Source: Myxococcus sp. (GTDB lineage: Bacteria; Myxococcota; Myxococcia; Myxococcales; Myxococcaceae). Taken from it: DNA of 56,662 nt. Under the pieces are notes generated by a model. It was given only the letters and a program-made list of their open reading frames with translations. It did not search any database and had not been told where the DNA came from. The DNA is taken from positions 1 to 56,662 of the forward strand of contig JACSRE010000258.1 in NCBI GenBank assembly GCA_014879945.1, given 5' to 3'. Position numbers and translations under genes: made by a program. This document shows, in pieces, positions 51,776-54,530 of the stretch (position 1 is its first letter; every line of letters begins with the position of its first letter).

Positions 51776-52303
51776 CTACCTCCCGGCAGGCTCGAAGCAC
51801 TCGACCCGCCCGTAGGCCGCGACGCATCGGCCCCGCGGGTGCGACGAGCACCGCACCACGCCATAGGCGGCGACGCACGAGTAGCCGCAGGCCGTGACGC
51901 CGTACGCGCTGGTGCACGAGGTGGGCGGGGTCGGCCCGCGCCGGGCGCTCCAGGCCGGGTCGCCGCAGGTGACCTCTCCGTAGGCGGCCGCGCACCTTCC
52001 CGCTGGCGTCTGCGCACAGCGAACGACGCCGTACGCCGCGACGCACGAATACCCGCACGCCGTCGTGCCGTAGGCGCTCTTGCACTCCGCGCGAGGGGCG
52101 CGCTCCAGCTCGCGGCGCGGCAGGTCGGGGTCGAAGCAGGTGATGCGCCCGTAGGCCGCCGCGCACACGCCAGCGGGTGTGGCGGCGCACGCGACCTCTC
52201 CGAACGCCGAGACGCAGCCGAAGCCGCAGGCGGTCTGACCGCCGCCGCTGACGCAGGTCGCGGTTTGTTGGGTCACGAGCGCCACGGCCAGGGCAAGGAG
52301 CAT
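51776..52303 (-). CDS. Secreted protein of nine CxxAYGxxxC modules
   Basis: A 175-residue protein with a short signal peptide ([10 protein letters not shown], then TQQTAT) and 18 cysteines. It consists of three repeats of about 56 residues. Each repeat holds three copies of a 10-residue module C-x2-[AG]-[YFG]-G-x3-C, so nine in all: for example [30 protein letters not shown]. Cysteine spacing per repeat is C-x8-C-x3-C-x8-C-x7-C-x8-C, invariant in all three copies. All 18 cysteines fall in modules. A Pro/Arg-rich linker separates repeats. The first module is degenerate ([10 protein letters not shown]). I know no named family; local disulfides or metal binding are plausible. It lies 46 bases downstream of the SRAP gene on the same strand. 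Confidence 0.8.
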
Positions 52304-52324
52304 GGGCCCCTCGACGCAGCGGGC

Positions 52325-52348: not shown

Positions 52349-53029
52349 TCAGAGGAGCTCGAGCTGAACGGCCTTCGCCGGCTCGAGGCACCGCGGGTCG
52401 TCGAACGCCACGTGGTTGACGTGGGTGCCCACCTCGAAGGCCGTGAACGAGGCGTCGGCGCCTCGATGGAGCAGCGCCTGCACCTCGGCCGCGCTCGTCG
52501 ACGACGACAGCCACGCCTCACGCGCGCCGGGCGCCACGAACAGCGGCATGCGGGTGTGAATGCGCGAGATCATCGCGTCGGCGGGCGTGGTGATGATCGA
52601 GAACGTCACCACCTCGAGCCCCTCGGGAGAGCGCCACGCCGTCCACACCCCGCCCATCGTCTGGATCGGGTGCTCCGGGGCGTGGATGAACAGGGGCGTC
52701 GCCTGCTTGCCGTGGTGGCGCCACTCGTAGAAGCCGTCGCACGGCACCAGGCACCGCGCGTGCGCGAGGGCGCTCGAGAACATGCGCTTCTCGGCCAGCG
52801 ACTCGGCCCGCGCGTTGATGTGCTTGGCGCCCTCGTGAAAGTCCTTCGCCCACTGCGGCGTGAAGCCCCAGCGCGCCATCACCAGCTCGCGCGGGTTCTG
52901 ATCGAGCTGCACCGGCGCGGCCTGGGTCGGGGCGATGTTGTAGCGGGGCTCGAGCACCGGCTCGTGGTCGAGGTGCAGCTCGCGCTGCAGATCGACGCCC
53001 TTCGCCTTGAGGGTGTAGCGGCCGCACAT
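52349..53029 (-). CDS. SRAP-family protein (YedK/HMCES-like)
   Basis: A 226-residue SOS-response-associated peptidase-fold protein. It forms a thiazolidine crosslink with abasic sites in single-stranded DNA through Cys2, which is the second residue here (MCGRYTL). Other active-site landmarks are present: PRYNIAPTQ (Asn), NARAESL (Glu), PCDGFYEW, and SRIHTRMP (His). Length and motifs are standard. The role is protection of abasic-site lesions during replication. The ATG at 53029 has TAGACT 15 nt upstream. I see no LexA-like GAACNNNNGTTC dyad upstream, in contrast to uvrA, so SOS control is not supported here. Confidence 0.95.
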   Translation of the reverse strand: MCGRYTLKAKGVDLQRELHLDHEPVLEPRYNIAPTQAAPVQLDQNPRELVMARWGFTPQWAKDFHEGAKHINARAESLAEKRMFSSALAHARCLVPCDGFYEWRHHGKQATPLFIHAPEHPIQTMGGVWTAWRSPEGLEVVTFSIITTPADAMISRIHTRMPLFVAPGAREAWLSSSTSAAEVQALLHRGADASFTAFEVGTHVNHVAFDDPRCLEPAKAVQLELL

Positions 53030-53072: not shown

Positions 53073-54530
53073 ATGCCCGTTTCGTCGATGCGCCTGACCG
53101 TTCGGCTCACCCTCGCGGCCTTTGGCCTGGTGGCGGTGTTCGCGACCGCGAGCCTGTGGGCGCAGCTGCCCGGCCTCTACGGCAGCCGCGGCATCACGCC
53201 GATCGCCGAGGCCATGGAGGGCCTGCGCCGCGGGGACGTCTCGGTCTTCCAGGTGCCGACGCTCCTGTGGCTCGGCTGGTCGGACGTGGCGCTCCACCTG
53301 CTGCTCGGGCTGTGCGTGCTCGCCTCGGTCTGCGTCACGGCGGGCCTTTCGCCGCGCTGGTCGTTGGTCGCGCTGTATGCAGGCTGGCTCTCGGTGGTGC
53401 AGGTCGGCGCGCCCTTCCTCAACTTCCAGTGGGACCTGCTGCTGCTCGAGACCGCCGTCGTCTTCCTCTTCCTGGCCCCGCCGGGGCTCCGGCCTTTCCA
53501 CGGCCCGAAGACCTGGGAGCCGGGCAGGGCGGCGCGCTTCGCCGCGGCCGTGCTCGCCTGCAAGGTGACGCTGGGCTCCGGGCTGGTGAAGCTGGCCAGC
53601 GGCGACGAGAGCTGGAGAGAGCTCACCGCGCTCACCTTCCACTGGTGGACGCAGCCGCTCCCGACGTGGACGAGCGTGCTCGCGAACGAGTGGCCGCTCG
53701 GTGTTCAGAAGGCCCTGTGCGCGGTGATGTTCGTGCTCGAGCTGCCGATTCCGCTGCTCGCGCTGGGGCCGCGGCGCGCGCGGCTGGTGGCGGCGGCGGG
53801 GCTGATGGCGATGCAGCTCGGGCTGATCGTCGCGGGCAACTACAGCTACTACAACGTGCTCACCTTCGTGCTCGCGCTCCCGCTGCTCGACGACGAGGCC
53901 CTGGCGCGTGTCTCGCGCGCACCCTTCGAGACTGTCGCGCCAGCGCGCTCGGCGTGGTGGGCCTGGGCGCTGGCGGCCGCGTACACCTTCTTCAGCGTGA
54001 CGGCCTTCTCGCGCCGCTTCGTGGTCGACCCGCCGCTGGCGCGCGTTCAGGCGTGGCTCAACCCGCTCCACGTCATCAACGCCTACGGCGCCTTCGCGGT
54101 GATGACGAAGACGCGGCCTGAGATCATCGTCGAGGGCAGCGACGACGGGGTGGCGTGGCGGGCCTACGACTTCCCGTGGAAGCCGGGGCCGCTCGAGCGC
54201 CGGCCAGACTTCGTGGCGCCGTGGCAGCCGCGGCTCGACTGGCAGATGTGGTTCGCCTCGCTGGGCAGCTGCTCCCAGAACCCCTGGTTCCTCTCGTTTC
54301 AGCAGCACCTGCTCCAGGGCACCCCTGAGGTGCTGGCGCTGCTCCGCCCGGGGCCGTTCGCAAAGGCGCCGCCGAAGTACGTCCGCTCGACCACCTGGGA
54401 GTACCGCTTCGCGCCGCTCGCTCAGCCCGGCGTGTGGTGGACCCGCACCCGGACGGGGCCCTACTGCCCTCCGCTCGCGCTGGCCGAGAACGGGCGCTTG
54501 CGGCGCGCAGAAGAAGTCGAGCCTCAATGA
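53073..54530 (+). CDS. Lipase maturation factor (LMF1)-like membrane protein
   Basis: A 485-residue integral membrane protein with about eight hydrophobic segments. Landmarks of the LMF1 family are present: FLNFQWDLLLLETAVVFLFLAP (QWD..LLET in loop 2), FHWWTQPLPTW, NYSYYNVLTF, and the C-terminal RVQAWLNPLHVINAYGAFAVM followed by TKTRPEIIVEGSDDG and PRLDWQMWFASLG. In vertebrates LMF1 is an ER factor needed to fold lipases; in bacteria the role is unknown, presumably envelope protein maturation or export. I chose ATG 53073 over a GTG at 53031, which overlaps the promoter. It is divergent from the SRAP gene. Confidence 0.9.
   Translation: MPVSSMRLTVRLTLAAFGLVAVFATASLWAQLPGLYGSRGITPIAEAMEGLRRGDVSVFQVPTLLWLGWSDVALHLLLGLCVLASVCVTAGLSPRWSLVALYAGWLSVVQVGAPFLNFQWDLLLLETAVVFLFLAPPGLRPFHGPKTWEPGRAARFAAAVLACKVTLGSGLVKLASGDESWRELTALTFHWWTQPLPTWTSVLANEWPLGVQKALCAVMFVLELPIPLLALGPRRARLVAAAGLMAMQLGLIVAGNYSYYNVLTFVLALPLLDDEALARVSRAPFETVAPARSAWWAWALAAAYTFFSVTAFSRRFVVDPPLARVQAWLNPLHVINAYGAFAVMTKTRPEIIVEGSDDGVAWRAYDFPWKPGPLERRPDFVAPWQPRLDWQMWFASLGSCSQNPWFLSFQQHLLQGTPEVLALLRPGPFAKAPPKYVRSTTWEYRFAPLAQPGVWWTRTRTGPYCPPLALAENGRLRRAEEVEPQ

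Follow-up and report, generated by a model that had tools for sequence, protein, structure and literature searches.

What kind of protein is encoded by a gene in which 18 of 175 codons specify cysteine, and what would hold such a protein together? The question is raised by an open reading frame (ORF) in the window, by which we mean the whole 56,662-nucleotide stretch of DNA analyzed here. The ORF begins with an ATG at position 52303 on the minus strand, a strand assignment that was absent from an earlier note on this locus. Its features are as follows.

51776..52303, minus strand: ORF for a cysteine-rich repeat protein of 175 amino acids with 18 Cys, very probably exported (ORF call and homologues)
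52307..52312, minus strand: GAGGGG, a possible Shine–Dalgarno sequence just 5′ of the ATG (as read from the sequence)
52259..52303, minus strand: hydrophobic N terminus of 15 amino acids, a probable signal peptide (sequence and N termini of relatives)
52127..52255, minus strand: unit 1, amino acids 17 to 59, six Cys; predicted hairpins at 52226-52255, 52187-52216, and 52136-52165
51956..52084, minus strand: unit 2, amino acids 74 to 116, six Cys; predicted hairpins at 52055-52084, 52016-52045, and 51965-51994
51788..51916, minus strand: unit 3, amino acids 130 to 172, six Cys; predicted hairpins at 51887-51916, 51848-51877, and 51797-51826

The gene and its repeat unit

The protein sequence is kept in homologues from other genomes, which match the window protein with E values down to 2.6e-38 in a single-protein search, and thus the ORF is a real gene. 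Its third-position G+C content is 0.90, compared with 0.91 to 0.96 for the neighboring genes. The relatives begin either with signal peptides that are equivalent to, or clearer than, that of the window protein or with lipoprotein signals. These N termini, along with the hydrophobic start of the window protein itself, support the proposal of the earlier note that the protein is secreted with a signal peptide, which would probably be encoded by nucleotides 52259 to 52303.

The gaps between successive cysteines are 8,3,8,7,8, then 17, then 8,3,8,7,8, then 16, and finally 8,3,8,7,8. This list confirms the invariant spacing C-x8-C-x3-C-x8-C-x7-C-x8-C previously claimed for all 18 cysteines. When the mature sequence was shuffled 20,000 times, the unit, which the window protein contains three times, did not arise even once. 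Repeat starts lie 57 and 56 residues apart, in keeping with the three repeats of about 56 residues that had been described. The three-unit architecture is therefore certain, as is membership of the protein in the family defined by C-x8-CG[YF]xC-x8-C-x7-C-x8-C with an A-x-T-P-x-G linker, a definition to which its sequence conforms.

The description of the protein as nine near-identical modules is too strong. Among the nine loops, seven carry AYG, one AFG, and one GGG, and the flanking residues vary. The motif C-x2-AYG-x3-C, offered as the defining module, proves to be the version of a subgroup, since some relatives have NYG, DYG, EYG, or GYG, and the loop tips of most relatives are DG, NG, or unrelated residues. 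Relatives instead conserve the six-Cys unit, in which CGYxC and CAxTPxGxC serve as linkers. The natural domain is this 43-residue unit, C-x8-C-G-[YF]-x-C-x8-C-A-x-T-P-x-G-x-C-x8-C-[FW]-D-P.

Distribution, age, and genomic setting of the family

Sequence searches of Pfam, NCBIfam, PHROGs, and the PDB with the window protein or its unit revealed no covering family. When membership in Pfam-A or NCBIfam was judged by a profile score above the curated cut-off, the unit region belonged to neither, giving only chance-level matches (DUF4124, Defensin, DUF6464, and Neuroparsin) that all fell below the cut-off where one is listed. The earlier note had recognized no named family and had regarded an existing Pfam family as grounds for refutation; the Pfam and NCBIfam searches bear out its view. 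We built a unit profile from 33 seed units, which is ready for use in annotation. The three window units score 66.5, 66.1, and 62.9 bits against it (E values of 2e-17 to 3e-16), partly by construction because they are among the seeds.

The profile matches 87 of the 195 genomes from the phylum, comprising 81 of the 96 from the bacterial family of the window and 6 of the 99 from elsewhere. All 15 genomes of the family that lack the unit are smaller than 8 Mb. Many large genomes hold seven units, divided between one 4-unit and one 3-unit protein, and the genome of the window does likewise, with the present 3-unit protein and a 4-unit paralogue on another contig. One relative (L004) comes from a metagenome-assembled bacterium of a different family in the same phylum, and no tblastn match pointed to phage or plasmid carriage. 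The unit also lies at the C terminus of TPR proteins (L067, L082, and L131) and of lipoproteins (L138, L133, L065, L066, and L074). Among the distant lipoprotein-type members, one domain weakly resembles DUF2799 at a score below cut-off. This C-terminal placement in several unrelated exported proteins shows that the unit is a shuffled domain. Judged from these sequence comparisons, the six-Cys domain family is an undescribed one that is almost always present in the bacterial family of the window, a group of large-genome bacteria that are probably myxobacteria of the Myxococcaceae. Its near-constant presence there, in most cases divided between a 4-unit and a 3-unit paralogue, makes a steady role outside the cytoplasm probable.

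The likeness of the units is old. Tandem Repeats Finder (TRF) detects no DNA-level repeat in the gene, where repetition exists only at the protein level, and identical residues of different units share codons in 42 of 79 cases when 48 are expected from codon usage. The codon comparison and the TRF result rule out recent tandem duplication or homogenization at the DNA level and indicate that the likeness has been kept at the level of the protein. In proteins with xYG tips, the residue preceding YG is also more alike within a protein (0.71) than after shuffling (0.37; reached in 0 of 20,000 trials), although the shuffle ignores kinship between proteins. Because this residue is alike even though the codons differ, selection would appear to maintain it.

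A SRAP/YedK-type gene (52349-53029, minus strand) ends 45 bp before the start of the cysteine-rich gene on the same strand, and co-transcription of the two at this locus is possible, an arrangement not seen in relatives. Two genes away from the cysteine-rich gene, at 53088-54530 on the plus strand, lies a gene for a lipase maturation factor family protein (LMF1 and LMF1_C, E value 4e-47). Eukaryotic LMF1 assists the folding of lipases that contain disulfides. No partner gene is conserved across groups, and relatives have other neighbors. In the genus of the window, the 4-unit gene follows, in conserved order, genes that we take by eye to be SixA-like and frataxin-like (L101, L102, L106, L107, and L128), and this locus adjoins genes that seem to resemble frr, pyrH, tsf, and rpsB. 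Since neighbors differ among relatives, and the 4-unit gene is placed elsewhere in other genera, no functional partner is indicated.

Proposed hairpin model and disulfide pairing

Three patterns among the relatives bear on how the cysteines might pair. The first concerns loop lengths. In 189 distinct units parsed with the permitted linker ranges preset at 2-4 and 5-9, the C2-C3 gap is always 3 and the C4-C5 gap always 7, and all changes in length (7-10) are confined to the C1-C2, C3-C4, and C5-C6 loops. In the same units, Gly occupies loop position 5 in 53 to 66% of loops. The second is cysteine loss. Among 350 distinct units from 117 proteins, the sole clear loss takes C1 and C2 together (unit 3 of L012, where C1 is replaced by Tyr and C2 by Phe), the remaining incomplete rows being explained by truncated frames, by proteins with consecutive hairpins, or by the edges of alignments. 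The third is growth of the repeat, in that relatives carry three, four, or five consecutive hairpins with the same alternating linkers.

A disulfide inside each C-x8-C segment fits the constant linkers, the joint loss of C1 and C2, and the hairpin-wise growth, and the 18 cysteines of the window protein are even in number and all accounted for by the paired loops. Where a hairpin turns over two residues, its positions 1 and 10 lie opposite one another as a non-hydrogen-bonded pair, and model hairpins are locked by Cys residues at their two ends (PMC10096425); the alternation of hydrogen-bonded and non-hydrogen-bonded pairs in hairpins has been described (PMC10096425, PMC12813973). A turn at loop positions 4-5 would thus place both cysteines face to face at a non-hydrogen-bonded pair, the usual location of a cross-strand disulfide. 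We propose that each C-x8-C segment forms a two-stranded β-hairpin with a two-residue X-Gly turn and a disulfide between its own Cys pair at the base. The constant linkers G-Y/F-x and A-x-T-P-x-G-x would lock three hairpins into one compact domain, and the looser linkers would string three domains together. The cysteines and linkers would then constitute a fixed scaffold, with the hairpin arms and tips as a weakly constrained surface.

Structure prediction gave little confidence, with mean AlphaFold pLDDT values of 37 for the full length (two sequences) and 47 for one unit (six sequences). Even so, the low-confidence models pair strands where the loops lie, at 6-9/12-15 and 35-39/42-46 in the single-unit model, which we count as weak support for the hairpins. 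Because confidence is low, we only infer the fold and the pairing. Covariation between mirror positions within loops is not above that of other pairs, and since a single loss of a Cys pair was found, the pairing is argued from this one event and from the length patterns. The host genome encodes DsbA-type proteins that score above cut-off, and no DsbB was found there by Pfam.

Most 3-unit paralogues elsewhere (41 of 49) contain 19 Cys, because one further conserved Cys follows their final unit, where it forms a C-x-H motif (for example L091, 8133-8753; typical sequence PSLLHCDHS). This odd count means that not all family cysteines can be paired within one chain, and the extra residue is predicted to be either free or intermolecular. 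Among 4-unit proteins, 50 of 52 contain 26 Cys, and the two extra residues, which flank unit 4 (for example in L002, 1480-2265), probably form an additional disulfide.

The same exported family might instead adopt another disulfide topology, such as C2-C3, C4-C5, and C1-C6, or a knot, in which the x8 segments would be exposed loops. The constant lengths of C2-x3-C3 and C4-x7-C5, whose linkers show low pN/pS values, would suit tight disulfide loops, and the weak AlphaFold models leave room for such an arrangement. However, the lone cysteine loss removes C1 with C2, the family expands by whole C-x8-C pieces, and the turn-like Gly residues and length changes sit inside the x8 loops, so we consider a different topology rather unlikely. 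A disulfide within each C-x8-C hairpin is the likely pairing, and an exported scaffold of disulfide-closed hairpins, leaving any binding role aside, is only slightly less probable. The earlier suggestion of a stack of small disulfide hairpins thus fits the evidence from loop lengths, co-loss, and hairpin number. Far more tentatively, the family could represent a new fold class that evolves by units no smaller than one disulfide-closed 10-residue hairpin, with these hairpins joined through two alternating rigid linkers and used for exported multivalent display in one bacterial family, probably myxobacteria.

Function and comparison with known systems

Among 25 orthologues of one genus, pN/pS is 0 for cysteines, 0.18 to 0.28 for linkers, and 0.60 to 0.65 for hairpin positions; these ratios are overestimates because synonymous sites are partly saturated. 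The pattern is as expected from a scaffold with a tolerant surface. Diversifying selection at the hairpin tips was considered and rejected, as pN/pS there is below 1. Most likely, the protein is an exported, disulfide-stabilized, multivalent module with a binding or structural role. A stable module located in the periplasm, on the outer-membrane surface, or in the matrix would present its hairpin faces and tips, and such a display would serve multivalent binding to a surface, a glycan, or a protein partner. Binding or display is our guess, however, and a doubtful one.

Other functions could also make use of so many cysteines or loops. Tandem, short, disulfide-closed loops on a constrained scaffold, themselves weakly constrained by pN/pS, could act as substrate-like protease inhibitors that shield the secreting cell from its own proteases or those of its prey, and inhibitors do occur among secreted cysteine-rich repeat proteins (PMC6262176). 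Yet sequence searches matched no inhibitor family, there is no fixed P1-like residue, and the AYG or NYG tips give no canonical inhibitor loop, which makes inhibition improbable. A structural coat or matrix protein, with cross-linked tip tyrosines in its AYG-type members, would account for the residue before YG being kept alike within each xYG protein despite differing codons, and would agree with the near restriction of the family to large genomes; the tip Tyr is nevertheless missing in most paralogues (DG, NG, EG, and others), no cross-linking enzyme was noticed nearby, and we rate this idea marginally below inhibition. The surface fiber and the lectin-like coat suggested in the earlier note are conceivable on the present evidence. 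As for the copper or iron binder of the earlier note, 18 cysteines at invariant spacing in 175 residues might suggest metal binding or storage by thiolates. Clusters of the metallothionein type (CC, CxC, or CxxC) occur in 0 of 379 units, however, and the probable export, the lipoprotein signals on some members, the gain of cysteines hairpin by hairpin, their single loss as a pair, and the placement of all 18 in paired loops leave a metal-binding function very improbable. An exported binding or structural module is the reading that we prefer.

This module invites comparison with the secreted cysteine-rich repeat proteins (SCREPs), a broad architectural class with bacteria among its reported sources (PMC6262176). 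Like SCREPs, the window protein is apparently exported and consists of tandem copies of one presumably disulfide-rich domain, a "pure domain repeat" (PMC6262176). With regard to the features by which SCREPs are recognized, a signal peptide and repeated disulfide-rich domains, the repeat is present, and the signal peptide and disulfides are predicted. The window domain differs in that no described family was found for it and in that its repeat grows by steps of a single hairpin.

Bacterial cis-defensins such as xanthusin-1 are known from Myxococcaceae and relatives (PMC11561630). They too are small, secreted six-Cys domains with a C-x3-C step, probably from the same bacterial group, whereas the window-type unit lacks C-x-C and occurs in tandem copies. 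The published cis-defensin pattern, CX(2,18)CX(3)CX(2,12)CX(4,17)CXC (PMC11561630), matches 0 of 117 family proteins, and membership is rejected.

A short hairpin loop closed by a disulfide would likewise be shared with Bowman–Birk-type inhibitors, although there is no sequence relationship. Bowman–Birk loops have C-x7-C spacing around a reactive-site core that does not vary. The C-x8-C length itself is also found in designed peptides. In designed disulfide-cyclised β-hairpin peptides, a terminal Cys pair locks a short hairpin (PMC10096425), as proposed here, but the window-type hairpins are natural, are chained in threes by conserved linkers, and are not homologous to the designs. If the proposed pairing is right, the family would be the natural equivalent of hairpins designed with a disulfide closure.
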